A program made the position numbers and the translations under genes. 64,000 nucleotides of DNA from Micavibrio sp. (lineage in GTDB: Bacteria; Pseudomonadota; Alphaproteobacteria; Micavibrionales; UBA9664), in assembly GCA_002699085.1 (NCBI GenBank), contig PAAR01000016.1, positions 62,001-126,000 on the forward strand, in the 5' to 3' direction. The notes under the pieces are model-generated. The model worked only from the letters and a program-made list of their open reading frames with translations, was not told the origin of the DNA and did no database searches. Below, in pieces: positions 2,730 to 25,252 of this stretch. The stretch's first letter is position 1, and each line of letters opens with the position of its first letter.

Positions 2730-2753
2730 CCACTTAACCAAAAGGAAGACATT

Positions 2754-3284: not shown

Positions 3285-3300
3285 GAAGGAGGCAAATTAA

Positions 3301-4965
3301 ATGACACAGATCGATTTAGGCAATATCCGCATTAACTGGCGCGGAGCCTATAACAGCGCTGGCAATTACGTGCGCCATGATGCCGTTTCATACCAAGGCT
3401 CAAGTTATATCGTCAAACGGACAGTGTCCGCCGTCACCCCCGTTCAAGGCGATGATTGGGATTTGATGGCAGCAGGTACGGATCAGCTTTCCCAAGAAGG
3501 TGATTTGCTGATCCATAATGGTGCTATTCCTGTTCGTCTTGCCCGTGGCGGTAATGCTCAAGTCTTGCAGATGGTGGGCAATCAACCTGCTTGGCGGGAT
3601 CAATCGCTCGATCCGTCCCGCCGTGTTTGGAAACTTGCCAAGGTGAACGGCATGGGCGGTTGGTACACGCGTGTTTATCTCATGGCTGATGGCACGATCA
3701 AAGCCTGTGGTTATGGCGGGAATTATTCCAATGGGGATTCCAATGGCTCGCATATTTACACGCCAAAGCGTGTGGCAACGGATGATCCGGATGTACGGTT
3801 TGTGGATGTGTTCTCAGGCGGCATGCAGCATTATGCCTTAACCGCCGATGGCGAAGTTTGGTCATGGGGGTTTAACAATTACGGACAGCTAGGACATGGC
3901 AATACCATTAATTTAGCGGTGGCCAAGCGTATTGAGTATTTTGTTCAAAACAATATCCAGATCGCCAAAGTTATCCCCGGTCGCCCGAATTATTACGACC
4001 ATGCCTGCACTTATTTCTTAACCACTGATGGCCGCGTTTATGCCTGCGGGATTAACAGTAACGGCAATCTTGGCAACGGAACATCCGCAAATCAATATAC
4101 GCCTATTCGCTGCGGGGCGCTGACCAATATTGTCGATGTCGCCACATCTGGTCTGCCCCATACGACATATGCCGTGCAAGATGACGGATCGCTCTGGGTT
4201 TGGGGCTATAATGGATATGGACAGCTCGGCCTTGGGGATACGACCAATCGGGAAACCCCCATTTTGCATCCCGCCTTTAATAATGTGATCAAGGCGTTGC
4301 CATCTTGCGGGTATAACACCGCTGGCTCTGGCCCGACAGGTTCCGGTCTTGTCTTATTAAGTGACGGTACATTATGGAGCGCTGGATATAACGGCAATGG
4401 CGCATTGGGGTTGGGCGATACAACGCAACGGACAAGTTTCACACAAATTATGCTACCCGCCGTTACCTTCACAGATATTTTTGTGGGCGATGGTCGCTAT
4501 GCAAGCGGTGGGGGCATTACCAATCAGGGTGATGTTTACCTCTGGGGGTATAACGCCTACGGCCAGTTGGGAACGGACAACACAACCAACCAACTCTCCC
4601 CGCAAAAACCAGCAGGAAGCTTCCAAGGTAATGTGACAAAGGCCGCCTTTGGCGGTGGGTGCAGCTATGAGGGCTGTATCCTGCAAGCAGGCAATGATCT
4701 ATGGGGCGCTGGGTATTCCGGCAATGCCAATCTGGGGATTAACAGCTTTGCCGCCACCAATAATACATTCCAACGCGTGCTTGGGCAGTCCGGCGTGATC
4801 GAGGACTGGAATTGTTATGGCCAAGGTACAGCCTCATGGGGGCTGGGCGTTTTGTATGACGACGGGCGCGTGGATGCTTGTGGTGACAATAACTCCTACG
4901 GCGAAACAGGCACACAAGTCGGCAATCTGCATGACGTAGCAACATTAACCAATGTCATTTTCTAG
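3301..4965 (+). CDS. tail-fibre-like protein with RCC1 beta-propeller repeats
   Basis: Repeated 'ALTADGEVWSWGFNNYGQLGHGNT', 'VQDDGSLWVWGYNGYGQLGLGDTTNRETP', 'VYLWGYNAYGQLGTDNTTNQLSP' = RCC1 repeats; N-terminus resembles tail-fibre attachment modules ('WRGAYNSAGNYVRHDAVSYQGSSYIVK'). Confidence 0.85.
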   Translation: MTQIDLGNIRINWRGAYNSAGNYVRHDAVSYQGSSYIVKRTVSAVTPVQGDDWDLMAAGTDQLSQEGDLLIHNGAIPVRLARGGNAQVLQMVGNQPAWRDQSLDPSRRVWKLAKVNGMGGWYTRVYLMADGTIKACGYGGNYSNGDSNGSHIYTPKRVATDDPDVRFVDVFSGGMQHYALTADGEVWSWGFNNYGQLGHGNTINLAVAKRIEYFVQNNIQIAKVIPGRPNYYDHACTYFLTTDGRVYACGINSNGNLGNGTSANQYTPIRCGALTNIVDVATSGLPHTTYAVQDDGSLWVWGYNGYGQLGLGDTTNRETPILHPAFNNVIKALPSCGYNTAGSGPTGSGLVLLSDGTLWSAGYNGNGALGLGDTTQRTSFTQIMLPAVTFTDIFVGDGRYASGGGITNQGDVYLWGYNAYGQLGTDNTTNQLSPQKPAGSFQGNVTKAAFGGGCSYEGCILQAGNDLWGAGYSGNANLGINSFAATNNTFQRVLGQSGVIEDWNCYGQGTASWGLGVLYDDGRVDACGDNNSYGETGTQVGNLHDVATLTNVIF

Positions 4966-4974
4966 GAGGCTTTT

Positions 4975-5433
4975 ATGAACCTAAAATCTTATTTGCAGAC
5001 CCGCGCGCCGGTTTTTACCGAAAGTGAAATCGCGCCCATCCATCTGGCGGATCTGAACGGACGGCATTATTACGCTTTTGCCGAAGATGTCACCCCGCCA
5101 TCGGGTGGCAAGGCTGTGCCTGATAACAAGCTGAAGGACGTTATTTCAAACAGCCAGTTGATCCGCCAGATTAAGGAAGAGGCTGGTCGACGTATTACGG
5201 ACATTGCGCCCGTGTGGAAACAGCAAAATGCGTTGGCAGATTTGTATCTGTTGGGTGATCGCACCGACCTGACCGAAGCCGAACAAGAAACGCTTACCAA
5301 AGCGCAAGATTTGCTGGCACAGGTGCAAGTGTTGCGTCAGCGTTCAAACGCCATCGAAGCCTCATTCTTAAACGGTGTGGCGGTGGATTATCTGACCGAT
5401 AAAGCTTGGGGGGAGTCTGAGGATGCCGAATAA
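4975..5433 (+). CDS. phage hypothetical protein (tail-fibre assembly-like)
   Basis: Intact ORF in tail operon. Confidence 0.5.
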   Translation: MNLKSYLQTRAPVFTESEIAPIHLADLNGRHYYAFAEDVTPPSGGKAVPDNKLKDVISNSQLIRQIKEEAGRRITDIAPVWKQQNALADLYLLGDRTDLTEAEQETLTKAQDLLAQVQVLRQRSNAIEASFLNGVAVDYLTDKAWGESEDAE

Positions 5434-5965
5434 TGCTTTATCAGAAGCCTTGCGTGAAGCCTATGCCTCTGCACCCAGTGACGTCGTAATTTTGCACACG
5501 CTGGAGCTGCGCCATCCGTCCTTTATCGATGATGATAACCAGCCGATGGCCATTCGCGTGGTGCGGGATAATCAGAATTTGACCGCCCGCATGGAAGCGA
5601 CAGCCCCGCTCAATGCCGGTGAGATGGTCGAATTTATCGCCATGGGGTTTGATCTGGAATTACCCCCTGTTGATACTGCGCCTGTGCCAGAAATTTCCAT
5701 CACGCTGGATAATGTCAGCCGTGAGATCGTGACGCATTTGGATCGGGCAGCAGAAAGCCAAGATAAAATCGAAATCACTTACCGCCCGTATTTGTCAGAT
5801 GATTTGGAAGGGCCGCAAATGGACCCGCCATTTACGCTAGTATTAACGGAGGTCAGTGCTGATGCTTCTCGTGTGACCGGTAAGGCCCGCATGCTCGATG
5901 TCGGGAATAAAGCCTTCCCATCAGAAACTTATAACGCTTTACGTTTTGCAGGGCTGACGCGATGA
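5423..5965 (+). CDS. DUF1833 family phage tail protein
   Basis: 'HTLELRHPSFIDDDNQPMAIRVVRDNQNLTARME...PEISITLDNVSREIV' typical of DUF1833; overlaps neighbouring tail genes. Confidence 0.8.
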   Translation: MPNNALSEALREAYASAPSDVVILHTLELRHPSFIDDDNQPMAIRVVRDNQNLTARMEATAPLNAGEMVEFIAMGFDLELPPVDTAPVPEISITLDNVSREIVTHLDRAAESQDKIEITYRPYLSDDLEGPQMDPPFTLVLTEVSADASRVTGKARMLDVGNKAFPSETYNALRFAGLTR

Positions 5966-6366
5966 CACATTGGGCAACAGACTATATCGGCAAGCCGTGG
6001 GTTGTCGCATCGGACGGGCCTGAGGCTTATGACTGCTGGGGCTTGGTGGTGGCGATCCATAAACGCCTTTATGAGCGGGATTTAACCATTATCCCTGTGC
6101 AGGAAAACAACCTGCGTCAGCTGATTAAAACCATTGATGCCCATCCGGAGCGGGCAAATTGGGATGTGGTGCATAAACCGATGGAAGGTGACATTGCCCT
6201 GATGCGTCAATCTCGCCATCCGATCCATGTCGGGATCTGGCTCGATATTGACGGCGGCGGAATGCTCCATTGCATGCAAGGCGCAGGCGTTGTGTTTCAA
6301 AATCTGCATAGCCTGTCTCTCACAGGCTGGAAAATCGAAAATTATTATCGCTACATTGGGGAATAA
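5962..6366 (+). CDS. NlpC/P60-type tail assembly peptidase
   Basis: 'YIGKPWVVASDGPEAYDCWGLVVAIHKRLY' catalytic Cys context and 'HPIHVGIWLD' His context. Confidence 0.85.
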   Translation: MTHWATDYIGKPWVVASDGPEAYDCWGLVVAIHKRLYERDLTIIPVQENNLRQLIKTIDAHPERANWDVVHKPMEGDIALMRQSRHPIHVGIWLDIDGGGMLHCMQGAGVVFQNLHSLSLTGWKIENYYRYIGE

Positions 6367-6368
6367 CC

Positions 6369-8624
6369 ATGGCGCAAATTGCCATTCATCATAATCCGTT
6401 TCATCTGCATCAAAATGTTGATCTGTTTGAACCGAATGTCGGGCAAACCGTGCGTGGATGGTTGGACGACCATGGAATCGTAGAATTCTCAAAGCCAACT
6501 TTATGCCTTGTGGATGGCGAGCCTGTTTTGCGGAAAGACTGGCCGCTGGTGGTGATTACCAAAGATACGGTGGTTAGCTTTATCGCTTTACCGCAAGGCG
6601 GTGGTGGTGGCAGTAAAATTCTACGCACAGTTCTAACCATTGCCGTGATGGTGGCCGCTCCTTATGCGGGTGCAGTACTGGCAGGAACGCTGGGTGTCAC
6701 TAGTGCGATTGGAACATCATTATTAACGGCAGGGATAGCTCTCGCTGGATCGGCGCTGGTCAATGCGCTTATTCCGCCACCGATGCCAAGCTCTGCCATC
6801 AGCAATTATAATGCGACCAGTCCCAGCCCGACATATTCTCTGCAGGCACAAGGTAACCAAGCCCGTCTTGGTGAGCCGATCCCTGTTGTGTATGGGCGGC
6901 ATGTTGTTTATCCCGATTTTGGGGCAACGCCTTATGCAGAGTTCGTGAATAATGACCAGTTTTTATTCCAGCTCCATGTCATCGGTCAGGGCGAATACGA
7001 TATTGAAGCCATCCGCATTGAAGATACGCCGATCAGCTCTTTTGATGAGATTGAGTACGAAATCATCCAGCCCGGTGGGAACGTAACACTCTTTGATACC
7101 GATGTTGTAACTGCGCCTGAAATCGCAGGACAAGAGCTTCTTTCTACTGGTGACGGTGGGGATTGGGTTGGGCCGTTTGTTGCCAATCCATCTGAAACCC
7201 TGACAACGCTTTTGGCGCTGGATATGATCCTGCCAAAAGGTTTGTATTACGCCAATGACAGTGGCGGTCTCAATAACCGCACGGCTTCATGGGATATTGA
7301 AGCGCGTTTGATTGATGATGACGGCTTGGCGCTGGGCGGTTGGTTTAATCTCGGCTCAGAAACCATCACAGACAACACCAACACCGCTATTCGAAACACT
7401 TATAAATACCCTGTGCCTGCCGGACGCTATGAAGTGCGCGCTATTCGCACCAATGCCAAGGATATGTCAGCTCGTGCAGGAAGTGATCTCAACTGGAATG
7501 CGCTCAAAGCTCATCTGGTCCACGATGATGATTTTGGCAATGTCACGCTGCTGGCCATGAAAATGCGTGCAACGGATAATCTATCGCAACGCTCATCACG
7601 AATGGTGAATTGCATCGTCACCCGTAAATTGCCGATTTGGGATAGCGTGGCCGGCTGGTCTGCACCGCAAGCCACACGATCCATTGCATGGGCGTGCGCC
7701 GATATCCTCAAAAGCAGCTATGGCGCAAAACTGGAAGACAGCCGTATCGATTTGCAGGCACTGGTGACCTTGGAGGCAATATGGAGCACACGCGGGGATA
7801 CATTTAACGGCGTGTTCGACCGCAAACTCACTGTGTGGGATGCGTTATCACAAGTGGCTCGCTGTGGCCGTGCCGTTGCATTCTTACAGGGCGGACTGGT
7901 GCGGTTTGTGCGGGACGAGCCAAAAACCCTTCCTGTGGCATTGTTCTCACCTCGTAATATCGTCAAAGGCAGTTTCAAAATCGATTATGTGATGCCGGGG
8001 GAAGATACTGCGGACAGTGTCACGGTTGAATTCTTCAACGAAAAAACATGGAAACCCGATGAGGTGACAGTCAGCCTGCCAGATAGCAGTGCCGACCAAC
8101 CTGCGACCGTTTCGCTCTTCGGCAGTACAGACAAAAACCATGCCATTCGAGAAGGCCTCTATATGGCCGCCGCCAATCGCTATCGCAGACGGATGGTGAG
8201 TTTCAAAACGGAGCTGGAAGGTTTGATCCCGACCTATGGCGATTTGATCGCCATATCCCATGATATGCCGCGCTGGGGCGAAGCCGGTGATATTACTGCC
8301 TATGAGTATCCATATTTAAACTTGTCAGAGGGCGTGAGTTTTACTGAAGGTGATAGCCATTACATCGTGCTGCGTAAAAAAGACGGATCGGTTAGTGGGC
8401 CGTGGCTGGTCACCGCAGGTGCAAATCAACGACAAGTCATGCTGGGCGAAGAATTGGACTTCACACCCTACACAGGTAGTGAGAAAGAGCGCACGCATTT
8501 TGCCTTCGGTATCGGTGAACAATGGGGAGTCCTTGCCCGTGTGACCGCCGTCAAACCGCGCGGTGATCTGGTCGAGATTGCCAGCGTTGTCGAAAACCCT
8601 CTGGTCCATACAGCGGATCAATAA
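6369..8624 (+). CDS. phage tail tip / host specificity protein (TipJ/gpJ-like)
   Basis: 'QARLGEPIPVVYGRHVVYPDFGATPYAEFVNNDQFLFQLHVIGQGEYDIEAIRIEDTPI' is the TipJ-family signature; hydrophobic N-terminal segment; position after NlpC/P60. Confidence 0.9.
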   Translation: MAQIAIHHNPFHLHQNVDLFEPNVGQTVRGWLDDHGIVEFSKPTLCLVDGEPVLRKDWPLVVITKDTVVSFIALPQGGGGGSKILRTVLTIAVMVAAPYAGAVLAGTLGVTSAIGTSLLTAGIALAGSALVNALIPPPMPSSAISNYNATSPSPTYSLQAQGNQARLGEPIPVVYGRHVVYPDFGATPYAEFVNNDQFLFQLHVIGQGEYDIEAIRIEDTPISSFDEIEYEIIQPGGNVTLFDTDVVTAPEIAGQELLSTGDGGDWVGPFVANPSETLTTLLALDMILPKGLYYANDSGGLNNRTASWDIEARLIDDDGLALGGWFNLGSETITDNTNTAIRNTYKYPVPAGRYEVRAIRTNAKDMSARAGSDLNWNALKAHLVHDDDFGNVTLLAMKMRATDNLSQRSSRMVNCIVTRKLPIWDSVAGWSAPQATRSIAWACADILKSSYGAKLEDSRIDLQALVTLEAIWSTRGDTFNGVFDRKLTVWDALSQVARCGRAVAFLQGGLVRFVRDEPKTLPVALFSPRNIVKGSFKIDYVMPGEDTADSVTVEFFNEKTWKPDEVTVSLPDSSADQPATVSLFGSTDKNHAIREGLYMAAANRYRRRMVSFKTELEGLIPTYGDLIAISHDMPRWGEAGDITAYEYPYLNLSEGVSFTEGDSHYIVLRKKDGSVSGPWLVTAGANQRQVMLGEELDFTPYTGSEKERTHFAFGIGEQWGVLARVTAVKPRGDLVEIASVVENPLVHTADQ

Positions 8625-8654
8625 TTTTAATCAAAAACTACAGGAGTAAAAAAC

Positions 8655-8918
8655 ATGTCCCTTGCTGAATGGGGCCTGCTGTTTGGCGTGCTTGCCAACA
8701 GCATCGGCCTTTTAATTGCGCTGGTTAAAATCGTCGCGTGGATTTCATCACACATCGCCACGGTCAACGAGCGCCTCAATAACCTCGAAAACCAAGTCAA
8801 TAACGACATCACCGGTCGTAAAGTCGTCGGTGAAATGCGTCAGGACATCGCTGTCATCAAAACCCAGATCACCGATATTCGAGACGATCTGAAGGCGATG
8901 CGTACCCCAATCAATTAA
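8655..8918 (+). CDS. small phage membrane protein (lysis-cassette accessory)
   Basis: N-terminal TM helix followed by coiled coil; next to holin and endolysin. Confidence 0.5.
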   Translation: MSLAEWGLLFGVLANSIGLLIALVKIVAWISSHIATVNERLNNLENQVNNDITGRKVVGEMRQDIAVIKTQITDIRDDLKAMRTPIN

Positions 8919-8954
8919 CCAACCACCACCCAAAACCATGAAAGGAAAAATATC

Positions 8955-9434
8955 ATGCTGACATTACTTGGAAGCCTGCTGGGCTTTTTATCATCCGCGT
9001 TTCCGGATTTCTTAAAACTTTGGCGCGACCATTCAGACCGTAAACACGAACTGGCTATACTGGATCGGCAAATGGAGGCACAACGCCAAGGCCACACACA
9101 ACGCCTCGAAGAAATACAGGTGCAGGCCGATATTGCCGAAAGCAACGCGCTATACAGCCACGCAAGCCAACCCAGTGGCGTGAAATGGGTCGAGGCTCTG
9201 CGGGCATCGGTGCGTCCGATTATCACCTATGCGTTTTTTATTCTGTTCGCCACAGTGAAAACCGCCGCTCTGTTCAAGCTATTGGATCAGGGTGTCGGAA
9301 TTACCGATGGACTGATTGCTGTGTGGGATGGCGAAACACAGGCATTATTTGCTGCAGTCATGTCCTTCTGGTTTGGTCAGCGCGCCTTGGCGAAATTTCG
9401 TTATCACGGCCCTTCGGGTCGCTCAAATCCTTGA
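8955..9434 (+). CDS. phage holin, 3TM family-like
   Basis: Charged coiled-coil N-terminus then 'WVEALRASVRPIITYAFFILFATVKTAALFKLLDQGV...LFAAVMSFWFGQRALAKF', resembling GTA/phage 3TM holins. Confidence 0.75.
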   Translation: MLTLLGSLLGFLSSAFPDFLKLWRDHSDRKHELAILDRQMEAQRQGHTQRLEEIQVQADIAESNALYSHASQPSGVKWVEALRASVRPIITYAFFILFATVKTAALFKLLDQGVGITDGLIAVWDGETQALFAAVMSFWFGQRALAKFRYHGPSGRSNP

Positions 9435-9522
9435 TAAATAGCATCTTATTCACTTGATAAGCTTCGGGAAAGAAGCGTTACTGTTACTCACAAAAAGCAA
9501 TTGAAAACAAGGATATAGAACA

Positions 9523-9816
9523 ATGAGCAAACTATTTTACAAGGCGATGATCGAAGACATTCAAAACGATAAATGCACCGATGCAGAGCTGGAGGCTCTG
9601 CTCGATGCTTTTGAATATACGGTCAAGAAAATGGCCCCCACGCTGGCTCGAAAATCTTGGTATGCGATGGAGGATTACGCCACATCCAAGCAGCGCGGCA
9701 TCGACCGTTTTAATTTGACGCTGGAGCGCAAGGATGTCCTCGGGCAAGAGCAATGGCACGGCGCATTTGAATACGGCAGTAAAAAACTCAAAATCATAGG
9801 AACATTGGAAAAATGA
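9523..9816 (+). CDS. phage hypothetical protein
   Basis: ORF between holin and endolysin, 4-nt overlap with endolysin start. Confidence 0.5.
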   Translation: MSKLFYKAMIEDIQNDKCTDAELEALLDAFEYTVKKMAPTLARKSWYAMEDYATSKQRGIDRFNLTLERKDVLGQEQWHGAFEYGSKKLKIIGTLEK

Positions 9817-10268
9817 GACATATCACTCAAAATGGAATTGACCTAATCAAACGGTTCGAGGGCTTCTCTCGGACCGTTTATTTTTGCCCTGCTGGTTATC
9901 CGACCATAGGCTACGGCCATGTAGTCAAGCCACATGAGGATTTCTCAGCAGGCATTGATGAAGCACAGGCAGAAGAGCTGTTACGCCAAGATGCTATTAT
10001 CGCCGAGCGTGCTGTTTTGCGTCTGATTAATGTACCACTCACAGACGGTCAATTTGATGCGCTGGTATCATTCACCTATAATCTGGGCGGCGGGGCGCTT
10101 CAACGCTCTACACTGCGCCGTAAAATCAACCACGAAGAACACGCCGATGTACCAGAGCAATTCATGCGCTGGGTTTGGGCGGGTGGCCGGAAATTGAAAG
10201 GGCTTGTTCGCCGGAGAGAGGCGGAAGTTAAACTTTATATTTATCAATGTTTACAACTTGAAGGGTAA
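9813..10268 (+). CDS. phage endolysin, GH24-type lysozyme
   Basis: 'GIDLIKRFEGFSRTVYFCPAGYPTIGYGHV' and 'LTDGQFDALVSFTYNLGGGALQRSTLRRKIN' match T4-lysozyme-like family. Confidence 0.93.
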   Translation: MRHITQNGIDLIKRFEGFSRTVYFCPAGYPTIGYGHVVKPHEDFSAGIDEAQAEELLRQDAIIAERAVLRLINVPLTDGQFDALVSFTYNLGGGALQRSTLRRKINHEEHADVPEQFMRWVWAGGRKLKGLVRRREAEVKLYIYQCLQLEG

Positions 10269-13200
10269 CCTCTCCAATGGGCAAAATAGCCTCTGTTTCT
10301 TCATTTTTTTGACAACCTAATAAGGCGCGTCCGATCGCTGAATGCTGAGCTATTGTACCAGAATCTGGATTACCATGAGTTGGTACAATTTGCACAGATC
10401 GTTTTTCTTTTTTACCATCATCTTTGACCATGAAATAAGTGACGTTATCGTAAAGCTCGACCACGTTGCCTTTGGAAACCGAGCCTTGTTCTGCGTCCTC
10501 AAATAAATCTTCTGGCTCATCATCCTTTTCTTCCGGTGTGAAATCATGCTCAATAACTACACTCTTTTCAGCGGTTTTCTTTATTTCATCGCTGTCTAGA
10601 AGCTCTTGGATGTAGTTTTTGAGCTTTTCAAACTCCTGCACAGGGTTGGAGAACCAGTCGGTCGACCATATGCGGTATATGCGCCAACCCAGTCCCTCAA
10701 GTACCTGCTGGCGGATAACATCACGCTCACGTGCGGATTTTGAAGAGTGGTAAGTCGCACCGTCGCACTCAACGCCCATAAGATAGCCGTAAGGGTATTT
10801 CGGATGTTTCACGCCAAGATCAATACGGTATCCGGCCACCCCGACTTGCGGGTGGACTTCACAACCTATACTTTCCAGCTTTTCTTTAACCCAGACCTCA
10901 AAATCGCTGTCCGGTATTTCATCGCGATCGCGTTGACCTTCATCTATTATGCCTTTAGCAGCATAGGCCAAAAAGCCCCTTAAGGCGCGTATGCCTTCAG
11001 AAGATGTATCGCTGACCTTAATATCTTCCGGTTTCAGAGACGTGAATATGACCATATTTTTCTTCGCGCGTGAAAACAGCACATTTAATCGTCTATAGCC
11101 CCCAGCACGGTTTATAGGGCCGAAACGCTGCATAACAGTGCCGTTTTTGTCTGGGCCGTACACGGTGGAAATAAAGATCGCGTCACGCTCATCCCCTTGG
11201 ACACTTTCGAGGTTCTTTACAAAGAAGGATTCCAGCGTGCCTTGCCATTTGGCCTTATAGTTGGCCGCATGCGGATACTCGATAAATGCGCGATCCATCT
11301 CAATTTCAATTAGATCCTTCTGCACTTGGTTCATGGTGGCAATCCCAAGGCTTCTATCCGGATGCTTCCGCATAAAGTCCAGGGCGGCTTTTACGACCGC
11401 CTCAACCTCATCCATGTTTGAATTAGCCGCATATGTGCCACCGACATATTCCAGCCGTACACCCAGCTCATTGGGGTTTTTGACGGGAGACGGGAATAAT
11501 ACAAGGCTCTGGTCATAGAAATGGTAGTTTGAGAACGCAATCAGGCTCTCGTGCTGTGAGCGATAATGGCGGCTCAAAATACGGGATGGCCTGAAGGACG
11601 ATAAAGCTATATCCATGATGGCCTCGGAAGTAAAATCTTCCTCGACTTCGTCATCATCTTTCCCTGCAGATTGGAAAAATGAGGTCGGTGGGAGCTGCTG
11701 GGGATCCCCGACAACGACAATCTGGTCTGCACGCGCAACACCGCCCAGCGCATCTTCGGGGCGCATCTGCGAGGCTTCGTCGATGACTATAAGATCGAAT
11801 TTGAATTTACCTGGCTCAAGATATTGCGCCACGGTCAAAGGCGACATGAGGAAGCACGGTTTAATCTTTTGGATCGACTGGCCGGCACGCTTCATAAGCG
11901 CCCTGATCGGGACGTGGCAGCGTTGTTTGTTGATCTCATTGTGCAGCAGCGCACCTTCCGTCCAAGTGCTTTTTCTGCCGCGTCCATTGCCAGCCATGGG
12001 CTTGGCGGTATTGAGCTTATTGCAAAGCTCTTGCTGCTGAAGCTCCAGTATTTCCTGATCAAGTTCTTTAATTCTGGCTCTCGCTTGTTCGAGGCTCATA
12101 CCACTGGTTTTTGAAATTACCGGATTACGCTGGTAAATCTCACGCGCCACGGCACTATAAACCATGTATTCAAAGGCCATGGGCAGTGTATCAAAGTCGA
12201 TCTTTTCCTGATCGTAAATTTGAAGCAACGGCCCCTTAATTGTATCGGCAGCTTTTGCGTAGTGTCCATTGAGGCCAACCCATTGATTGAGGGCATCCGG
12301 CTTGCTTAAAGCTTGCGATAATTGATTGACGAGATCGCCCAGATCTATATCCAGCCAGTAATTTTCATCTGAAGGAGAGCCGAAGCTGATATTGGCGTGG
12401 CCATCGACTTCTGTCGCAATGCCCGTTGTATCGTTGATCGTATCGGTTACAGCTTCCAGTTGGGCTTTAAAGCTCTTCCATGTTTTTGAAAAATCCTTGT
12501 TTAAGAACAGGTCAAAGCCGTTCTCCAGCTCCGGTATAGCCAGACAATCGCCTATAAAGCGCGCAGTTGCGTCAATGTCTTCAATATCGGTTTCGGCGCC
12601 TTCGTAAGCATTGCCGAAAAACTTTTTAACGACACTGTCTTGATCGGCGGCATCGCGTGCTTCCTTGGCATTCTGCAAGCGCGGAAGATCTTCGGCGATA
12701 TGGGCAAAGGTGATTGCCTCGCCGGAGGCCGTGTTTTGAAGCTGATTTTTGAGCGTATTCAGCTTTTCTGCTTTCTCCATCAGGCCGTCCAGGTATTTTT
12801 TGACGGGAGTGTCGGGCGCAACATCGCCTTTAATGTCCGCTATTTTGCTTTTCAGCGCGACAAAACGATCATCGTTTGCCAGATCCCTCACGGAATCCAG
12901 CTCCTCCATATCGCCCTTTAAAAGCCATTGGCGGACATTTCGGGAAAACTCATCGCCGGACGCATAGCGTTTACGGACGCTGGAAGCCCATTCATTAATC
13001 TGCTGGAGCTTTTTAAAGTCGGTCTGGATGCCGTTAAACGAGGATCCGCAGATCGTCTGGAGCTGGTTGTCCTGCTCGATCTTTTCTTTTTCTTCCTTAT
13101 TATCGGCGATCGCACGCAGTACGTTGGCGGATTTTTCCGGATCAAATTTGGCCTTTTGTTTCGAGGCCAGTGTGACGACTTTTTTCGCCTGACGGTAGGA

Positions 13201-15741
13201 TGAATCAAAAATAGCGAAAAATCCGGCGTTATCCAGCGCAGCAGCGTGCATACGGATCTCGTACGGCTTCCCCATCATCGAGAGGTCATAGCGCTGCTCC
13301 TGATCCTCCAAGTTTGCCTGAATGCGCTCCTGCGTGTCGGCAGCAGCCTTTAGGCGCGGCGCGTTGGTTTCATCGATAATATCGTTTGTGCGGAAGAGCA
13401 AATAATCACGAGGCACGGAGGCGATATAATCCGGCACCTCGGCCAGCGCATAAATCTTGTCCAGATCCTCGTTTTTTGATACGCCAAATCGTTCGCCAAT
13501 GCTGAGAAGCGTTTTGAGGTTTTTGTCCCACAGTTTCAGCTCTTCTTCCAAATCTTTGACATGCGCCCGTATGTCGAGCGCGGTCATATTATCGGCTTCC
13601 ATCTCCTTCGCGGCCAGTGTGTGCGCTTCGATCTCTTTGAGATTATCAATGGCGGCAGACGCGTTCTGCATGGACTGGATTTCTTTTAAGGCCGATCTGT
13701 AAACGTGGATGTGCTCGACAAAAGCCGCAAGCGCAGCCGCTTTTCCCTTGTCCCCCAGATCCGCTATAAAATCCTCGTTCAATGTGCTGGTGTCGTAATC
13801 AATAAGATCATCGAGATAATCGTAAAACGCATTGATGTCCTGGGTGGTATTGCCGATCGAGAGATCGAACGCCTTATTGAAGGCTTCCAGATCTGACTGG
13901 ATTTTCGCCAGCCCATCTCTCCATTTTTCAATCAGCAGCTTTAATTCGTCCTGCTGGAACGGGTTTAGATCGGCATTGCCGACAAAGCCCCATGGGTGCT
14001 TGCCGTTTTTGGATTCTGCATCGACCTGCTTTTTGAGGGTAGCTATGGTTTCCAGCTCGTCGGTATGACCGCTTAATTCGCTGGCGGACAAATCGGCCTG
14101 TTCAAACGGTATTTTACACTGGCTGATAATCGAGAGCAAATTGCCAATGCGGTCTTTGCGGAGCTGTGCGCCCCACAGATAATCATGGATGGGCTTGTTC
14201 TGTCTGCCGAAGCTGGAATTCAGTGCGCTGATGTATTCCGTGATGTGATCTCTGTGCCGTTTGAAGTCCTGCATCTTTGAAGCAAGATAACCGCCGTTCC
14301 CGCGTGCAGAGCGCAGTTTTAAACGCTCTTCTATGGATTTTAACACCTCGGTCTTTTTGGCCTTTGTGGAGTGCAGTTCTAGGCAATACGGCCCTAAATT
14401 CGCATCACTTAAACGCTCATGCACCACGTTCAAAGCAGCCATTTTCTCAGCCAAAAACAGCACGGACTTATCCGCCGCAAGCGCGTTGGCGATGATATTC
14501 GTGATTGTTTGCGATTTTCCTGTCCCTGGCGGCCCTTTAATGGCCATGTTATTGCCCTTCATCACATCGACCAAGGCACTGTGCTGTGAAGCGTCAGCGG
14601 AGGTGATAAGCAATGGCACGACTTCCTCGACTTCGGGCGTGTCGATATCGTAATCCTCAGCATGATCACCGCTAGGCTCACTCTCGGATCCGGCAAACAG
14701 ACTTTGCACGATCTCATTGGTGGATACATCAGTCTCACCAGGCCATTTTTTGGAGCTGAGATCATAGAACATAACCAGCCGTGCAAAACGAAAGCGGCCT
14801 ATAGTGATAAATCGGCGGATCTTCCATTTTTCTTTTTTCGGGACTTTGGCTTCCTGAATAAGCTCGTCCACTTTCCGCATGTAATCTTCCGGCCCGTCCT
14901 CTCCGGTAAATTCCGGCAGCTCTATGCCGAAATCATTGCGGAGGCGTTCCGACAAAGACAGATTGATCTCTGGCTCTTCTCCGGTGGCTTCCACGCGGTA
15001 GGTGTATCCTTCGCGGGATTGCTTCTTTTCAATTTCGAGCTGAAGCAATAATAAGGGCGAAACGCATTTCTTGTCCGAATTGGCGGACTCATACCATTCC
15101 AAAAAGCCGAACGCCGCATAGAGGGTATTTACACCGGATTCCTCAATATCCGTCCGGACATAGGAATTCAGACCGCTCAGTTTTCGGCTCATCTCTTCGG
15201 GCTTCAAAAGCGTCTGGATGAATTTATCCGTGTGCCGCTCGGCATCCTCCTGATTTTCAGGTGTTGGCTCCGGCATTTCATAGCTGGGGTCAAGATGGTG
15301 CTTTTTGGCGACTTCGGCGTTGGTCAGGCTTTTCTGCTCTTTCCATACAGGCAATTTTAACTCTTCGCGGATCTTGTTGCGAAGCTCACGCTCGATTTGC
15401 TTGATTTTGTCCAGCGCACCTTCTTCATCCTCGTCCACGGAATCAATGGCCTCGATATACTTTTCATCGGTCAATTTGGCCTGTTCAAGATGGCGCATGA
15501 ATTCAGGTGTTTTTTCATCCGGCGGGATCTGGTCTTCCTCCGGCAACGCCAAAAACGTCAGCTTTTTGCCATCTAAAAATTCGCCATAAAGAAAGTCGGG
15601 CAATTCGTCGATCACGCGAATATGCTGGCGCGATCTTTCGCTGTGATTAAAGGATATCAGGCTGTTCCTGCGAGAGGTATCAAGGAGCTTTGCTCTATAT
15701 TTTTCAATGCATTCTTTTACAAAATTCATGTCAGTTGTCAT
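10228..15741 (-). CDS. DUF4011-type SF1 helicase with Vsr/MTES_1575-like PD-(D/E)XK nuclease and GreA/GreB-C-like C-terminus
   Basis: Walker A 'AIKGPPGTGKSQTITNIIANALA', Walker B 'FDLIVIDEASQMRPEDALG', SF1 motif 'VVVGDPQQLPPTSF', nuclease 'GYRIDLGVKHPKYPYGYLMGVECDGATYHSSKSARERDVIRQQVLEGLGWRIYRIWSTDWF', tail 'GTIAQHSAIGRALLGCQKNEETEAILPIGEVTLQVVNI' resembling GreA/B C-domain. Start at 15741 (MTTDMNF) preferred over 15780 because of GGGGAGAT RBS. Confidence 0.85.
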   Translation of the reverse strand: MTTDMNFVKECIEKYRAKLLDTSRRNSLISFNHSERSRQHIRVIDELPDFLYGEFLDGKKLTFLALPEEDQIPPDEKTPEFMRHLEQAKLTDEKYIEAIDSVDEDEEGALDKIKQIERELRNKIREELKLPVWKEQKSLTNAEVAKKHHLDPSYEMPEPTPENQEDAERHTDKFIQTLLKPEEMSRKLSGLNSYVRTDIEESGVNTLYAAFGFLEWYESANSDKKCVSPLLLLQLEIEKKQSREGYTYRVEATGEEPEINLSLSERLRNDFGIELPEFTGEDGPEDYMRKVDELIQEAKVPKKEKWKIRRFITIGRFRFARLVMFYDLSSKKWPGETDVSTNEIVQSLFAGSESEPSGDHAEDYDIDTPEVEEVVPLLITSADASQHSALVDVMKGNNMAIKGPPGTGKSQTITNIIANALAADKSVLFLAEKMAALNVVHERLSDANLGPYCLELHSTKAKKTEVLKSIEERLKLRSARGNGGYLASKMQDFKRHRDHITEYISALNSSFGRQNKPIHDYLWGAQLRKDRIGNLLSIISQCKIPFEQADLSASELSGHTDELETIATLKKQVDAESKNGKHPWGFVGNADLNPFQQDELKLLIEKWRDGLAKIQSDLEAFNKAFDLSIGNTTQDINAFYDYLDDLIDYDTSTLNEDFIADLGDKGKAAALAAFVEHIHVYRSALKEIQSMQNASAAIDNLKEIEAHTLAAKEMEADNMTALDIRAHVKDLEEELKLWDKNLKTLLSIGERFGVSKNEDLDKIYALAEVPDYIASVPRDYLLFRTNDIIDETNAPRLKAAADTQERIQANLEDQEQRYDLSMMGKPYEIRMHAAALDNAGFFAIFDSSYRQAKKVVTLASKQKAKFDPEKSANVLRAIADNKEEKEKIEQDNQLQTICGSSFNGIQTDFKKLQQINEWASSVRKRYASGDEFSRNVRQWLLKGDMEELDSVRDLANDDRFVALKSKIADIKGDVAPDTPVKKYLDGLMEKAEKLNTLKNQLQNTASGEAITFAHIAEDLPRLQNAKEARDAADQDSVVKKFFGNAYEGAETDIEDIDATARFIGDCLAIPELENGFDLFLNKDFSKTWKSFKAQLEAVTDTINDTTGIATEVDGHANISFGSPSDENYWLDIDLGDLVNQLSQALSKPDALNQWVGLNGHYAKAADTIKGPLLQIYDQEKIDFDTLPMAFEYMVYSAVAREIYQRNPVISKTSGMSLEQARARIKELDQEILELQQQELCNKLNTAKPMAGNGRGRKSTWTEGALLHNEINKQRCHVPIRALMKRAGQSIQKIKPCFLMSPLTVAQYLEPGKFKFDLIVIDEASQMRPEDALGGVARADQIVVVGDPQQLPPTSFFQSAGKDDDEVEEDFTSEAIMDIALSSFRPSRILSRHYRSQHESLIAFSNYHFYDQSLVLFPSPVKNPNELGVRLEYVGGTYAANSNMDEVEAVVKAALDFMRKHPDRSLGIATMNQVQKDLIEIEMDRAFIEYPHAANYKAKWQGTLESFFVKNLESVQGDERDAIFISTVYGPDKNGTVMQRFGPINRAGGYRRLNVLFSRAKKNMVIFTSLKPEDIKVSDTSSEGIRALRGFLAYAAKGIIDEGQRDRDEIPDSDFEVWVKEKLESIGCEVHPQVGVAGYRIDLGVKHPKYPYGYLMGVECDGATYHSSKSARERDVIRQQVLEGLGWRIYRIWSTDWFSNPVQEFEKLKNYIQELLDSDEIKKTAEKSVVIEHDFTPEEKDDEPEDLFEDAEQGSVSKGNVVELYDNVTYFMVKDDGKKEKRSVQIVPTHGNPDSGTIAQHSAIGRALLGCQKNEETEAILPIGEVTLQVVNIDKYKV

Positions 15742-15745
15742 TGCA

Positions 15746-16900
15746 CTATCTCCCCACAACTTCCTGTCTAACTGGATCATAGCGGTAATTTACAATGTCT
15801 CCATTCAGCACAAAATTTATTGTTTGTTCTATAATTTCTAATGGTGCGATAAACCATTCACGAGGAGTATGGCGCTGACCTTTCTCGTCGAAAATATCAA
15901 TATTAAGGCAGGATGATCCAAAAAACGTATGAAGCAATTGCTCTAGTTTTTGAGGGTTCATATTATAGCACTGATAGGCTTCTACGATATGCACCGGTGC
16001 CATGAGATAAGTAGGTTCATTTGCTGCATTTTTGATGCGCTGCTCCACAGGTATGGTTGAAAAGCCAATTTTATATAGGTTTTCTACTTCATTAATTTCA
16101 GGCCTATCACTTAATGAGCGTAATACATAAATAAAGCCCGTTTCTTTATCTTCGTCGGGGATGTCGCTAAAACCATCGAGTAAATGATCTTCATGTTCGG
16201 TAACTCGGCGGCCATCTTTATAGAGTTCGGCTGATAGAGAGCGTAACAACATGTCAGATTCTGTGCCGTTTTCAAAAATACAGCGCAATCTGGCATTCTT
16301 TTTACCATTATTTATTTCAACCTCACCAACCTCAGCGACATAGAGCAATATCCCTTTGAGAACGAAAAAATATCCTTTTTGAATTTGTTGCTCATTCTTG
16401 AATGGCCACAATTTCCGTTTGCCTGAGGACAGGTCAGCCTGGCACTGAATAAATTTAGCTTCAAATGCTTCAAAGTCCTTACAAGGCTTACGACTTGCAA
16501 CATAATCTGGCATAGTCGTCTCTTTTGAAACATGACGAAGGGTAAAAATCTCTTCAGCGTCATTACCCAATATTCCCAAATCGTCATCGTCAAAGATATC
16601 ATCAATAGAGGTGATTTCTTTTCGGGGAACACTGAGTAAGCCATGTTCATCCAGATAAGCTAATGCTTGCATTTTGTCATTGCTCTCACGAATGCCTTTG
16701 AGGCGAGCGTATAACTGATGCTCTTGAATGCCTTTACCACTTTGAGGTTCTCGACCATTTTCTGAGACGAACTGATTGATTTGAGTAAAGGATGCAATCA
16801 GACGCTCATCTGCGGTTGCAACAGCAGACTGTTTAGGCTTCACATTCAAAAGCCCTAAATCATCATCTTCTATAAGCTTCAATAAATCGTCTTTATCCAC
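15746..16900 (-). CDS. T5orf172-type GIY-YIG nuclease family protein
   Basis: 'GFIYVLRSLSDRPEINEVENLYKIGFSTIPVEQRIKNAANEPTYL...VHIVEAYQC...LEQLLHTFFGSSCLNIDI...HTPREWFIAPL' typical of T5orf172/MUG113. Confidence 0.85.
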   Translation of the reverse strand: MDKDDLLKLIEDDDLGLLNVKPKQSAVATADERLIASFTQINQFVSENGREPQSGKGIQEHQLYARLKGIRESNDKMQALAYLDEHGLLSVPRKEITSIDDIFDDDDLGILGNDAEEIFTLRHVSKETTMPDYVASRKPCKDFEAFEAKFIQCQADLSSGKRKLWPFKNEQQIQKGYFFVLKGILLYVAEVGEVEINNGKKNARLRCIFENGTESDMLLRSLSAELYKDGRRVTEHEDHLLDGFSDIPDEDKETGFIYVLRSLSDRPEINEVENLYKIGFSTIPVEQRIKNAANEPTYLMAPVHIVEAYQCYNMNPQKLEQLLHTFFGSSCLNIDIFDEKGQRHTPREWFIAPLEIIEQTINFVLNGDIVNYRYDPVRQEVVGR

Positions 16901-16911
16901 GAAATTACACC

Positions 16912-18831
16912 TTATAAATTCTGTTGACGGCGCTGGTTTTGAATATAAATCAACGCTTCAGCAAGTCGTCTTTCTAATGGATCGACAGAGTTAATATTAG
17001 GTTGCTGCCCATTATTGTTCTGAACAAAACTTTTAATCTTTGGCCACAAAAGCATGGCTTCTTCATCGGTCATTTGAATGCGTGTGGCTTCGATAGCTTC
17101 TTGAATGACACGAAATACCTGGGCTGTTACGGATTTGGATAGAATTTCAAAGGCCGCTTGGAATGGATTAATGCTATCAATCAAATCAACATGCAGGTCA
17201 TCGATATTTACAAACTTTCCAGCCATACGAATAAAGCGCTTATCACCTGTTTCTTTGATTTCGCCATTCTTAATGACGGAATCAACAACCACATGCTGGC
17301 GGACTTCTTCGACTTCCGCATCTGATAATTCAGGATATTTAATTTTAATAATTTTCGGGATCATAATTTTGTTAATCACTTCCGGATCAACATTTCCTGG
17401 AAGAGCTTTGATCATTTTGTCATCCTGAAGAATGCTTGCTTTAAGATCGTTCAAATCAGATTCAACGATCTCTTTCACACGCTTCGATGATGGTTCTTTA
17501 AAACCACGGATTTTGATCTCGCCAGGCTTGGCTTCATCGTCATCTGAAAGTTTAGTTTTGAATTTGAAATTAGGGGCGAGAACTTGCTCCATCAAAAGCG
17601 AACAGGTAATAGCCTTCAGCATATTATTCACGGATAAAGTAACCAGTTCATCTTCTGCATCGGGCTGGGCGATCAGATTGGTAAACTGAGCATGCGTTTT
17701 ATTATCGCTGTCACGGGTGCAACGTCCTATAATCTGGATGACTTCCGTTAATGAGCCTCTGTAGCCGACCGTCAAGGCATGTTCACAATATGGCCAATCA
17801 AAACCTTCCTTTGCCATGCCAAGCGCAATAATCAAATCAATATCATCTGCCGATTTAATGTTACGGAGGTATTCTTGCACGCGATCTCGCTGATATTCCT
17901 CTACCAGATTGGCAACTTTTAAGATTTTGCCGTCTTTATGTCGTTTTAAGTAGATAATGCCTGTTTGAGAATCCTGATAATCAACTTCACCGAGGATACC
18001 TAATATCGTATCGACCTCTTCATATTTCTCTTTTGTGGATTCACCAGAGTTCACGCTGGGAATATGCAAGATGGTCTTTTTATCTGTATCCAAAACTTCA
18101 GCAATCGCGCTGGTGTATCGACCTTGGTAAAAGTGATATCCGATGCCCAGAGATTTAAGATGAGTGTAGCCATTCAGCTGCTCATAGTAATTGTATGTCA
18201 CCTTTGAGAACTTCTCTTCGTCCTCAGGAAGGAGAACAGGCTTACCATCACCACGGAAATATGATCCCGTCATGGCAACAACGTGAGCGCTGGATTTCGT
18301 CATAATTGAGTGCAAAAGCGTTCCCAAGCGGCTGGTTTCTTTATCGGCAGACACATGGTGAAATTCGTCAATCGCCAAAAGGCAGTTATCAAACTTGCTC
18401 TCATCAATTTGTTCAAAAGCAAATCTGAGCGTTGCATGGGTGCAGATCAGGATTTTTTCATTACTATCCATGAAGCGCATAAATGCATCGACTTTGCTTT
18501 TATCGCCACCGGGCGTACATAGGTTATAATTTTCCTTAGGTTCCCAGTTTGCAAAAAAGCCATGGGACTTAAGGTCAGTTGTGCCAAATGATCCACCGAT
18601 GGATTTTTCAGGTACGGCCACAATCACTTTTTTTAAGCCTTGATTGATCAGCTTATCTAAAGCGATAAACATCAACGCACGAGATTTACCGGATGCGGGT
18701 GGCGCTTTCAAAAGCAAATATTGTGCATCACGGGCGGAGTAAGCACGCTCTTGCATCTCCCGCATACCCATTGAATTGGTTTTTGTACTTTCCCCTGTCT
18801 GGGCATATGTGACGTCGACGATATTTGGCAT
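16912..18831 (-). CDS. DEAD/DEAH-box (SF2) helicase, restriction-subunit-like
   Basis: Walker A 'LLLKAPPASGKSRALMFIAL', DEFH box 'CLLAIDEFHHVSADKETSRL', motif III 'AMTGSYFRG', motif VI-like 'EVIQIIGRCTRDSD'. Confidence 0.88.
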   Translation of the reverse strand: MPNIVDVTYAQTGESTKTNSMGMREMQERAYSARDAQYLLLKAPPASGKSRALMFIALDKLINQGLKKVIVAVPEKSIGGSFGTTDLKSHGFFANWEPKENYNLCTPGGDKSKVDAFMRFMDSNEKILICTHATLRFAFEQIDESKFDNCLLAIDEFHHVSADKETSRLGTLLHSIMTKSSAHVVAMTGSYFRGDGKPVLLPEDEEKFSKVTYNYYEQLNGYTHLKSLGIGYHFYQGRYTSAIAEVLDTDKKTILHIPSVNSGESTKEKYEEVDTILGILGEVDYQDSQTGIIYLKRHKDGKILKVANLVEEYQRDRVQEYLRNIKSADDIDLIIALGMAKEGFDWPYCEHALTVGYRGSLTEVIQIIGRCTRDSDNKTHAQFTNLIAQPDAEDELVTLSVNNMLKAITCSLLMEQVLAPNFKFKTKLSDDDEAKPGEIKIRGFKEPSSKRVKEIVESDLNDLKASILQDDKMIKALPGNVDPEVINKIMIPKIIKIKYPELSDAEVEEVRQHVVVDSVIKNGEIKETGDKRFIRMAGKFVNIDDLHVDLIDSINPFQAAFEILSKSVTAQVFRVIQEAIEATRIQMTDEEAMLLWPKIKSFVQNNNGQQPNINSVDPLERRLAEALIYIQNQRRQQNL

Positions 18832-19406
18832 TATTTATTTCCAGTATTATTGTTTTGTGACTGAGGGGTGGGCTTTACCGCCTCGGCTGGTTTGTTTTGG
18901 CTAACAGTAGTTTTGGGCGGCACAAAAGATTTTTGTTCTGTTACCTTGGCTTGCGGCGGTGTGAATGAATTTTGTAATTCTTTTAGATTCTTGTTTTCTG
19001 TCATGCTGACCTCCTTTTGAATTATTGCTGTAAACATTGATATTGTAATTACACATATCCCGCCTATAAAAAGCCACTCTCTCCAGATATCTAGAGTCCG
19101 TGCCTTGTTGAAGAGTATTTCTCCATCTTCAACAGCGGCTTTTGTTGTCTCCATGCTTTTGTCACAACCATCTCTTGCCGATTTCAACGAGAGTATTTGT
19201 AAGAGAATAACGCCTAAGAAAAGCACAAGAGAAAATGCGAGTAGTAACGATACAGAAAAGCTATGCTCATTTGAGCTTAGAGCATTAAATAAAAAAGGTA
19301 TTGCCAGTGTAGAAATGCCAAAAATGGCCTTATTCAGGAAACTCTGGTTTTCTTTGTAAAGCTCCATCATTAGTTCGTTATATGCTTCACGTTTTTTATC
19401 ACTCAC
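18831..19406 (-). CDS. small membrane protein of defence operon, hypothetical
   Basis: Predicted TM segments 'FLNKAIFGISTLAIPFLFNAL', 'SVSLLLAFSLVLFLGVILLQIL', 'WLFIGGICVITISMFTAI'; overlaps both neighbours by 1-4 nt. Confidence 0.7.
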   Translation of the reverse strand: MSDKKREAYNELMMELYKENQSFLNKAIFGISTLAIPFLFNALSSNEHSFSVSLLLAFSLVLFLGVILLQILSLKSARDGCDKSMETTKAAVEDGEILFNKARTLDIWREWLFIGGICVITISMFTAIIQKEVSMTENKNLKELQNSFTPPQAKVTEQKSFVPPKTTVSQNKPAEAVKPTPQSQNNNTGNK

Positions 19407-22066
19407 AGCAGACCCCCTGATTTTTCTTTGGCGGTCATGTCTTCGTAGAGTTTGAAGAGGTATTCGAGGCGTTCTTCATCACTGGTGAATGGTTTGGAGC
19501 GGTAGCAACGCTCAACCGCAAGGTCGAGGTGGTGGTGAGCCTCTCTTAACCCATCTGGCATTTTGTCGGGGTCATACAGTTCCGCCATTGTTTTTTCGGA
19601 ATGTTTTTCACGCTCTTCCAACACATTGTAAACATGCGTGGTGATCGTTTCTTTTTGCTTTTCTGTAAGATCAGGGACGGGAAACGTATTGTAGCACATT
19701 TCAGCGGAATAACTTATTCCAGTCCCAAGTCTACCAGATACTGCTTTTACCCAGAGCATGTGGGATTTAGAGGCAATCAATCCAAAAATAAATATGGGGC
19801 AGTCAAAAATTACACTAGCTTTACTTGTGACAATATTGTTTTTGTCTAAAAAACCTACTGGTATATATTCTCGATTTTCTGATGATACTATAGGTATAAG
19901 AAATTGATATTCTTTAGGTTGTTTAATTGTTACGAAACGATAAGGAACATTAGCAAACGATCTCTCAACAGAATTCCCATCAACTCTTTTTAATCTTACT
20001 TTTTCAACCCTCTCGGCTATTTCAGGTATATTTAATGCGTCATTTAGTTCTTTTTCAGTAATCCAAATGCACCACCGCTCTATACTATTAATAAACTCGT
20101 TTGCTCCGAACAGGCGCTTTAGATATGAATCTACTCTAGGATTTTGATGTCTTAAGCTCTTTGCTTCATCGGAAGTGAGCATTAAATATCCTCCCTCTCT
20201 GGGCTGATTACCAAGGATCATCTTTGGAAAAAATTTTGAGATAGGTTTAGATTGCTTACTAATTATTAAATTGGGACCGCTTACTAAGTAAGGGTTGATA
20301 TTTTGAACTGTGGAAATTGTACCATTATCGTAAATACGCTTTTGATAATTACAACTTTTATGCATAAGTCCAATAATTGTACATGTTACACCGGCATTGT
20401 GTTTAGCATTGTTACTCCATTTAAATGCCGAGTAACAAAAACATATTTCGACGTCTTGAGATAAAATTTTGGGCCATAGCATATCGACTTGAGTGCCTTG
20501 GCATATTGAGTTTGTAGTTACAAATCCGGAACGAATAGAGTTATTGATATACCTAGCCGCCAGATAAAACCAACATGAGATATAGTCTAGTTTTTTATAA
20601 TTTGGCTGGCCAGTGAATACGTAATCTAAATCACCTCTGTGGTCGTCAGTATGGTTTTTTTGTCCAGCATAAGGGGGGTTACCCAAAACGTAAATTTCGG
20701 CATCAGTGTCTTTTGGACAAACATCTTCCCATGGAATACGGGTGGCATTGCCACATACGATATTGCCACCTTCTTTTAACGGCAGGGTTGGATTGGTTTG
20801 ACCAAAGACCTCCTCGAATTTCACGTTCATTTGATGCTCGGCCAGCCATAGGGAAAGAATGGCAACCTCATGCGCGAAATCATCCAGCTCTATCCCGTAG
20901 AATTGTGAGAGCTGAATGCGTGAGAATGGCAGTGATGGGTTGTCGGTTATTTCCTGAATGCGCTGGAATATCTCCATTTCCAGTTCGCGGATTTCTTTAT
21001 AAGCAATAATCAGGAAATTACCCGAACCACAGGCCGGGTCAAAAATGCGAAGCTTTTCAAGGCGGGCGAGAAGCTGTTCCAGTTTTTTCTGGTTATCGTA
21101 ATGTTTATCAAACTCTTCACGCAGTTCATTCAGGAAAAGCGGCTCAATCACTTTCATGATGTTTGGTACGGAGGTGTAATGCTGCCCCATACTGCTGCGC
21201 TGGTCTTTATGAACCACAGCCTGGAACATTGAGCCGAAAATATCTGGGTTAATCGTCGCCCAGTCTAACTCACCACATTCAATGATCATGCGGCGTGCTT
21301 TGCGGGAGAATTTTGGTGCAAAATATCTGTCACCGAACAAGCCGCCATTCACGTATGGGAATTTTGAGAGGTAATCAGGGTAGTTCGAATGATCGGCGGT
21401 ATTCAGCACCTCAAACAGTTTGTTCAGGTAATCGTCAAGATCACTGCCGTCTTCTTGCGTGTGTGAGCTGATGGCATTGGTAAAGGCGTTATCTTTGAAA
21501 ATGCCAGTGTCTTCAGCAAAGAAGCAAAACAACAAACGTGAAAGGAAGATGTTCAGCCCATGTAAATCTTCCTTTGTTTCAAAGGCATTACCTTGCAAGA
21601 TTTCGTCATAGATTTTCGCCATTTTCTCGGCGGCTTTGACATCGGCCTCTTGCTCGTTGTAATGGGTGTTTTTCTCAATTTTTGCCCATGGCCCGAAAAA
21701 GAATGGATGCTTGTTCAGCTCTTCGATTTTTATATCGAGCGTATCGTCTGTTTTTGTATCAATGGCCAGTAAGGTTTTGTAATCCGTCACTACAATAAAG
21801 CGTGGGTCATGACGGTGGGTTGCATCATCATTTTTTAGGCTGTCAATTAGGCTATGCAGATCTTGTTCCTGTGTTTCTTGAAAGAACAATTTGCGCTTAA
21901 GAATAATCTGACCGCCTTTTTTGGAAAGGTTACGGTTTCCTTTTTTAAGGAGCGTAACGGTCGTTTTAGGCGTGCCATAAGCCAAAAGAAGATCGTAAAC
22001 AAACTCCTGAGGTGAAATGTTTTTCACCAACTCTGAAAGATTTTTTTCGATCTGCGCGATGTTCAT
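19403..22066 (-). CDS. MmeI-like class I SAM-dependent N6-adenine DNA methyltransferase
   Basis: Motif I 'IFDPACGSGNFLIIAYKEIRELEMEI', motif IV 'YVLGNPPYAG', MmeI-like helical spacer 'LFCFFAEDTGIFKDNAFTNAISSHTQEDGSDLDDYLNKLFEVLN', TRD-like C-terminal half. Confidence 0.92.
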   Translation of the reverse strand: MNIAQIEKNLSELVKNISPQEFVYDLLLAYGTPKTTVTLLKKGNRNLSKKGGQIILKRKLFFQETQEQDLHSLIDSLKNDDATHRHDPRFIVVTDYKTLLAIDTKTDDTLDIKIEELNKHPFFFGPWAKIEKNTHYNEQEADVKAAEKMAKIYDEILQGNAFETKEDLHGLNIFLSRLLFCFFAEDTGIFKDNAFTNAISSHTQEDGSDLDDYLNKLFEVLNTADHSNYPDYLSKFPYVNGGLFGDRYFAPKFSRKARRMIIECGELDWATINPDIFGSMFQAVVHKDQRSSMGQHYTSVPNIMKVIEPLFLNELREEFDKHYDNQKKLEQLLARLEKLRIFDPACGSGNFLIIAYKEIRELEMEIFQRIQEITDNPSLPFSRIQLSQFYGIELDDFAHEVAILSLWLAEHQMNVKFEEVFGQTNPTLPLKEGGNIVCGNATRIPWEDVCPKDTDAEIYVLGNPPYAGQKNHTDDHRGDLDYVFTGQPNYKKLDYISCWFYLAARYINNSIRSGFVTTNSICQGTQVDMLWPKILSQDVEICFCYSAFKWSNNAKHNAGVTCTIIGLMHKSCNYQKRIYDNGTISTVQNINPYLVSGPNLIISKQSKPISKFFPKMILGNQPREGGYLMLTSDEAKSLRHQNPRVDSYLKRLFGANEFINSIERWCIWITEKELNDALNIPEIAERVEKVRLKRVDGNSVERSFANVPYRFVTIKQPKEYQFLIPIVSSENREYIPVGFLDKNNIVTSKASVIFDCPIFIFGLIASKSHMLWVKAVSGRLGTGISYSAEMCYNTFPVPDLTEKQKETITTHVYNVLEEREKHSEKTMAELYDPDKMPDGLREAHHHLDLAVERCYRSKPFTSDEERLEYLFKLYEDMTAKEKSGGLL

Positions 22067-22069
22067 ATT

Positions 22070-22273
22070 TTAATCTTCCTTTTGATTCTGTGCTGTTGAG
22101 GCTTCAGATTGACGCTTTATCCACGCATCAATTTCTCCTTTTTTAAAGCGCCATGCACTGCCAACTTTAAAGCCAGGAACCTTGCCCTCTGACGCAAATC
22201 GATACGCTGTCTTCTCAGCGATCTTTAAATAATCAGCGAGTTCTTTAACCGTCATAATATCGTCGTTAGGCAT
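22070..22273 (-). CDS. excisionase/MerR-like helix-turn-helix DNA-binding protein
   Basis: 'MTVKELADYLKIAEKTAYRFASEGKVPGFKVGSAWRFKKGEIDAWIKRQ' typical HTH_17; start at 22273 with AAGGAC RBS; 3 nt before MTase. Confidence 0.85.
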   Translation of the reverse strand: MPNDDIMTVKELADYLKIAEKTAYRFASEGKVPGFKVGSAWRFKKGEIDAWIKRQSEASTAQNQKED

Positions 22274-22428
22274 AATTGGCTGTCCTTTAAGGTTATGATG
22301 ATAGAAAATAATTGAAATGGGATGAAAAGACAAGTAGTATTCAGGCATAATTTAAGTAGCTTTGCTTACTTTCGACCCAAAGCTGGCGTTGAAAACGGCT
22401 ATAGAATATATTTTTTAAGGGATTTTTT

Positions 22429-25166: not shown

Positions 25167-25252
25167 GCAAACATAATTGAAGTTGTTTAATTAGAGTCTC
25201 AAAGTTTCCAAGTTAAATGGAATAAGTACCAGGTTTTAGAAGGATAAAAATA

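Follow-up and report, generated by a model that had tools for sequence, protein, structure and literature searches.

The closest described relatives of the gene analysed here are the anti-phage protein Hhe, in which a DUF4011 domain, an SF1 helicase and a nuclease follow one another, and the family captured by the PADLOC candidate profile PDC-S37. Its C-terminal tail leads to another group of proteins, the Gre family, whose characterised Gre-C members GreA/GreB, Gfh1, Rv3788 and Rnk bind RNA polymerase (RNAP) according to a review (PMC4598747). A precedent for an SF1-type NTPase that reaches RNAP via a Gre-like arm is HelD of Bacillus subtilis, which has long arms and recycles RNAP (PMC7749165). 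Sather et al. 2023, considered as a possible Hhe paper, was set aside, being cited in connection with Swi2/Snf2 helicase classification.

In Micavibrio sp. the Hhe domain order is found in a single gene of the window, i.e. the whole 64,000-nucleotide stretch of DNA that was analysed, where it lies behind prophage tail genes and tail-to-tail with an endolysin gene. The features are as follows:

3..10268 (+): prophage tail and lysis genes (tape measure, tail J, endolysin), from PHROGs; the endolysin is also the neighbour in L004, a relative in another species
10228..15741 (-): DUF4011 / SF1 helicase / MTES_1575 nuclease / Gre-C protein, 1837 aa from ATG 15741
14941..15690 (-): DUF4011, residues 31-280 (Pfam PF13195, E 1.2e-35)
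14254..14595 (-): first RecA-like part of the SF1 helicase, AAA_11, Walker A GPPGTGKS (Pfam PF13086 and motif)
11041..11583 (-): second RecA-like part of the SF1 helicase, AAA_12 (Pfam PF13087)
10612..10902 (-): REase_MTES_1575 (Vsr/DUF559-like) nuclease, residues 1627-1723 (PF18741, E 1.1e-35; Foldseek match to I-Bth0305I)
10468..10611 (-): acidic linker, predicted disordered (pLDDT <50 over residues 120-159 of a 237-aa model)
10243..10467 (-): GreA/GreB C-terminal domain, residues 1772-1846 (PF01272 above cut-off; AlphaFold2 pLDDT 90.1; Foldseek)
15746..22604 (-): lower-GC cassette of a GIY-YIG nuclease (T5orf172), DEAD helicase, membrane protein, MmeI-type methyltransferase, MAD1-like HTH protein and small ORF

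The open frame in the ORF listing spans 10228..15780 (-) and encodes 1850 aa, the frame in which residues are numbered throughout, but ATG 15741 is the likelier start since it lies four bases past the stop of the upstream gene and has a GGGGAG ribosome-binding-like site; it also agrees with the end coordinate in the preliminary description. The helicase and the nuclease both retain intact motifs (GPPGTGKS, DEAS, GDPQQLPP, QGDE, RRLNVLFSRA and RIDL..VECDGATYH). The helicase had been called giant, and this size is usual for the family, as Hhe profiles run to ~1800-1900 aa. PDC-S37 is the best PADLOC profile at 1236 bits, followed by Hhe at 904 bits, while the NCBIfam Hhe model NF042953 scores 1339.2 bits over residues 25-1754 and misses its curated cut-off of 2000 bits; judged by its sequence, it is related to Hhe but divergent. 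The Klebsiella Hhe is ~50% identical to it over the second helicase part and the nuclease but ends in an unrelated helical tail, whereas the Micavibrio protein ends in Gre-C. The PDC-S37 match stops short of this tail, which is matched by none of the PADLOC models.

The C-terminal tail is a Gre-C domain, as indicated by profile, predicted fold and recurrence in relatives. PF01272 matches the full protein with 33.9 bits (E 3.2e-8) against a curated Pfam cut-off of 26.9 bits, the tail scanned alone with 41.0 bits (E 1.9e-10), and 12 of 12 homologous tails. A profile of the 12 tails found E. coli GreA (1GRJ, E 3.6e-8) as its best match in the PDB, followed by Gfh1 and Rnk. AlphaFold2 was run on five tails, with pLDDT ranging from 49.6 to 90.1, and the best model (pLDDT 90.1, pTM 0.77) retrieved only Gre-family proteins (GreA, Gfh1, GreB, Rnk) as its first 14 PDB chains in Foldseek (E 5e-7 to 1e-3); the next match was unrelated (E 0.06), and the query-normalised TM score against GreA was 0.82. 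This tail-only model supplemented a weak 237-aa model that included the nuclease (pLDDT 64.2), although the latter also ranked Gre proteins first and the homing nuclease I-Bth0305I, which we take to be Vsr-like, after them, with the nuclease region matching at E 0.015. The preliminary description had likened the tail to the GreA/GreB C-terminal domain and the nuclease to Vsr; the former reading is borne out by profile search and structure prediction alike, and the latter is a fair one in view of Pfam (REase_MTES_1575) and Foldseek. Recruitment to transcribing RNAP, which it also suggested, is plausible. The N-terminal coiled coil of Gre factors, with its acidic tip, had no match in the protein (Pfam GreA_GreB_N, E<=1) and its place before the Gre-C domain is taken by the disordered linker, which makes stimulation of transcript cleavage by this protein unlikely.

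The fusion is not confined to Micavibrio. Thirteen fused cases were found, located on chromosomes, on viral contigs and on one Rhizobium plasmid. The preliminary description took absence of the tail from all homologues, or failure of profile or structure prediction to recover the Gre-C fold, as grounds against its reading; neither was observed. Fused tails occur in L004, which is 87% identical to the Micavibrio protein over residues 806-1849, in L008, in L018 (the Rhizobium plasmid, where the gene stands alone), on viral contigs L021, L023 and L025 and in genomes G509, G541, G653, G614, G483 and G610; in the last (L047) the gene is seemingly broken, with a Gre-bearing 192-aa frame that begins within the nuclease. 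In the alphaproteobacteria, 7 of 385 genomes carry a fused tail; these score 68-110 bits, whereas no ordinary GreA exceeds 63. Nuclease-type relatives were present in 46 of 399 Pseudomonadota genomes, and among the matches examined there (18 weaker ones were left out) a fused tail was seen only in the Micavibrio gene, together with one separate ORF. The Gre-C ORF at L104:2534-2842 is separate and overlaps a DUF3320-type helicase gene at its 3' end; this split version of the fusion belongs elsewhere in the tree. In L044 the Gre-C tail is followed by DUF3320 and in L041 by a RAMA/DUF4357-like stretch that falls below the cut-off. A search of viral contigs with the tail region of the Micavibrio gene gave no match, tail-only profile patterns had insufficient conservation, and a phylum-wide PF01272 scan returned only ordinary-length frames among the matches listed and is uninformative on fusions. 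No mention of the Gre-C fusion was found in the open-access literature searched, a scope outside which most subscription journals fall, and the architecture may already be listed in protein databases.

When 74 relatives were compared in a tree based on the nuclease and the second helicase part, all 11 placeable fused rows fell in one 24-row branch (support 100/100), which also includes tail-less and other-tailed members; a minimum of three changes is required. A second, smaller tree puts the Klebsiella Hhe branch close to the Gre-tailed L023 and L025, though support for this is modest. Of the 74 rows in the first tree, 44 have DUF3320 in the C-terminal slot, and the Gre-C tail is absent from L003 (78% identity), where the gene ends before the domain, and from L005 (55% identity). 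A decayed tail in L003 was considered and rejected: a few residues after the stop are alike by eye, but blastn found only the linker. Within L152-L155 the slot holds the helical tail of Klebsiella Hhe or, in the Sphingomonas/Qipengyuania plasmid members L154/L155, a tail with the motif LDGIEW; neither tail matches Gre-C or DUF3320. Since the slot may hold Gre-C, DUF3320 or the helical Hhe tail, or may be empty, Gre-C is a swappable module in a variable C-terminal position. Between the Micavibrio gene and L004, dN/dS is ~0.16 for the tail, 0.015 for the nuclease and 0.058 overall, values that are rough as dS exceeds 1 and is near saturation; the tail is therefore constrained by purifying selection, while being the fastest-changing folded part measured.

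The base composition of the gene (GC/GC3 0.488/0.551) matches that of the phage genes, and in L004 the gene adjoins the same endolysin with the junction kept; the helicase is therefore read as prophage cargo, and the adjacent cassette (GC 0.38-0.42, GC3 0.345-0.42), although transcribed in the same direction, as probably a separate arrival. Plasmids of Proteus and Rhodococcus have the methyltransferase-DEAD-GIY-YIG core of this cassette but no DUF4011 gene with it, and the helicase of those copies is ~67% identical to that of the cassette. By eye, the MmeI-type methyltransferase has seemingly lost its N-terminal nuclease motif, and cutting may therefore fall to the GIY-YIG protein. Also within the cassette, a membrane protein at 18831-19406 (-) has a sub-threshold match to ZIP transporters, and the two plasmid copies have no such gene between the methyltransferase and the DEAD helicase; beside the methyltransferase, an HTH protein at 22070-22348 (-) scores above the NCBIfam cut-off of MAD1, which belongs to the MADS defence system. 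In the tail region, an RCC1-like repeat protein at 3301-4965 (+) matches PHROGs families that bear the name 'regulator of chromosome condensation'. The stretch 22668-30590, which separates the cassette from copper-resistance genes, encodes an SbcC-like ATPase, DUF2924 proteins, a phage integrase (27581-28801) and an AAA_13 protein, and there may be further defence-like genes at this end of the element.

Residues of the type that contact RNAP were compared between the tails and 30 GreAs from the searched genomes. In the GreAs S121 was kept in 28, S124 in 28, P125 in 30, R128 in 29 and K133 in 26 (E. coli numbers), as opposed to 0, 4, 10, 2 (plus 2 Lys) and 0 of the 13 fused tails, a contrast that is if anything understated, as the GreA set consists mostly of those best matching the tail profile. 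The S124 position holds Glu or Arg in 5 of the 13 tails, with Glu in three. Several near-invariant GreA residues are likewise replaced in the Micavibrio tail: S121, P125 and K133 are lost, and the positions of S124 and R128 are kept. In GreA, S121P binds RNAP poorly and S124L retains binding (PMC7527559), while S127E of the M. tuberculosis Gre factor, aligned to E. coli S124 via the mutagenic primer, abolishes it (PMC3132773). Unlike these positions, fold and core residues are conserved over the 13 diverged tails.

From its family and its prophage location we infer that the protein may act in anti-phage defence, and the explanation that is offered, at about even odds, is that of a prophage-carried, Hhe-related anti-phage effector with a swappable Gre-C docking module whose most likely partner is RNAP or transcription complexes. 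The SF1 helicase motor would travel along DNA and the MTES_1575 (Vsr-like) nuclease would cut it, while the Gre-C-fold domain, held on a flexible acidic linker, would serve as the swappable docking module. Its partner would most likely be RNAP, or transcription complexes on invading DNA, and docking would bring the helicase-nuclease to phage genomes under active transcription and load it there, such that superinfecting phages are excluded. The likeness to HelD is one of mode only, and homology of its arm to the tail is not claimed. To our knowledge, HelD has no nuclease.

RNAP as the partner is the least certain step of this explanation and is held tentatively, somewhat short of an even chance. 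The residue evidence is mixed, and docking of the Micavibrio tail on RNAP is correspondingly put at slightly below even: it is doubtful because S121, S124, R128 and K133 are mostly replaced in the tails, and plausible because characterised Gre-C proteins bind RNAP and one Rnk-like sequence in the set also lacks the Ser at S124, the Arg and the Lys, i.e. three of four residues. The same observations bear on a tentative alternative, to which roughly one chance in three is given: that the Gre-C fold has been kept but repurposed for a partner other than RNAP, for example a phage protein, with the tail as sensor, or the protein itself, with the tail in auto-inhibition. The loss of contact-type residues against a conserved fold, the fast evolution of the tail and the unrelated modules that share its slot (DUF3320, the Klebsiella helical tail, LDGIEW) would all suit a repurposed domain, although RNAP binding by GreA/B, Gfh1, Rv3788 and Rnk, and the similarly depleted Rnk-like sequence, argue against it.

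That the tail is an evolutionary leftover of little function, helicase and nuclease being enough, is very improbable: its absence from L003 and L005 would fit, but purifying selection relative to L004, the confident predicted fold, the core residues conserved over 13 diverged tails and the split arrangement of L104, with Gre-C on its own ORF at the end of a DUF3320 relative, all speak against it. Hardly more probable is membership of the gene in a multi-gene restriction system with the MmeI-type methyltransferase, DEAD helicase and GIY-YIG nuclease. The shared strand and an ATG only four bases after the GIY-YIG stop would invite such a reading, yet the plasmid cassettes do without the DUF4011 gene, GC3 differs (0.551 vs 0.345-0.42), relatives such as L018 stand alone, and a search of G034, the incomplete genome containing L004, did not turn up the DEAD helicase. 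A single operon with the cassette was set aside in view of base composition and of the plasmid cassettes that lack the DUF4011 helicase.

How Hhe-type single-protein defences discriminate phage from host DNA is a question on which the Gre-C module bears, and its recurrence suggests recognition or loading through the transcription machinery, with a modular C-terminal slot that allows tails to be swapped. It is possible, if somewhat doubtful, that this Hhe-like branch uses Gre-C to ride on, or be called to, RNAP, so that the nuclease attacks DNA under transcription. If true, prophages, plasmids and chromosomes would all carry an immune nuclease that is directed by transcription.
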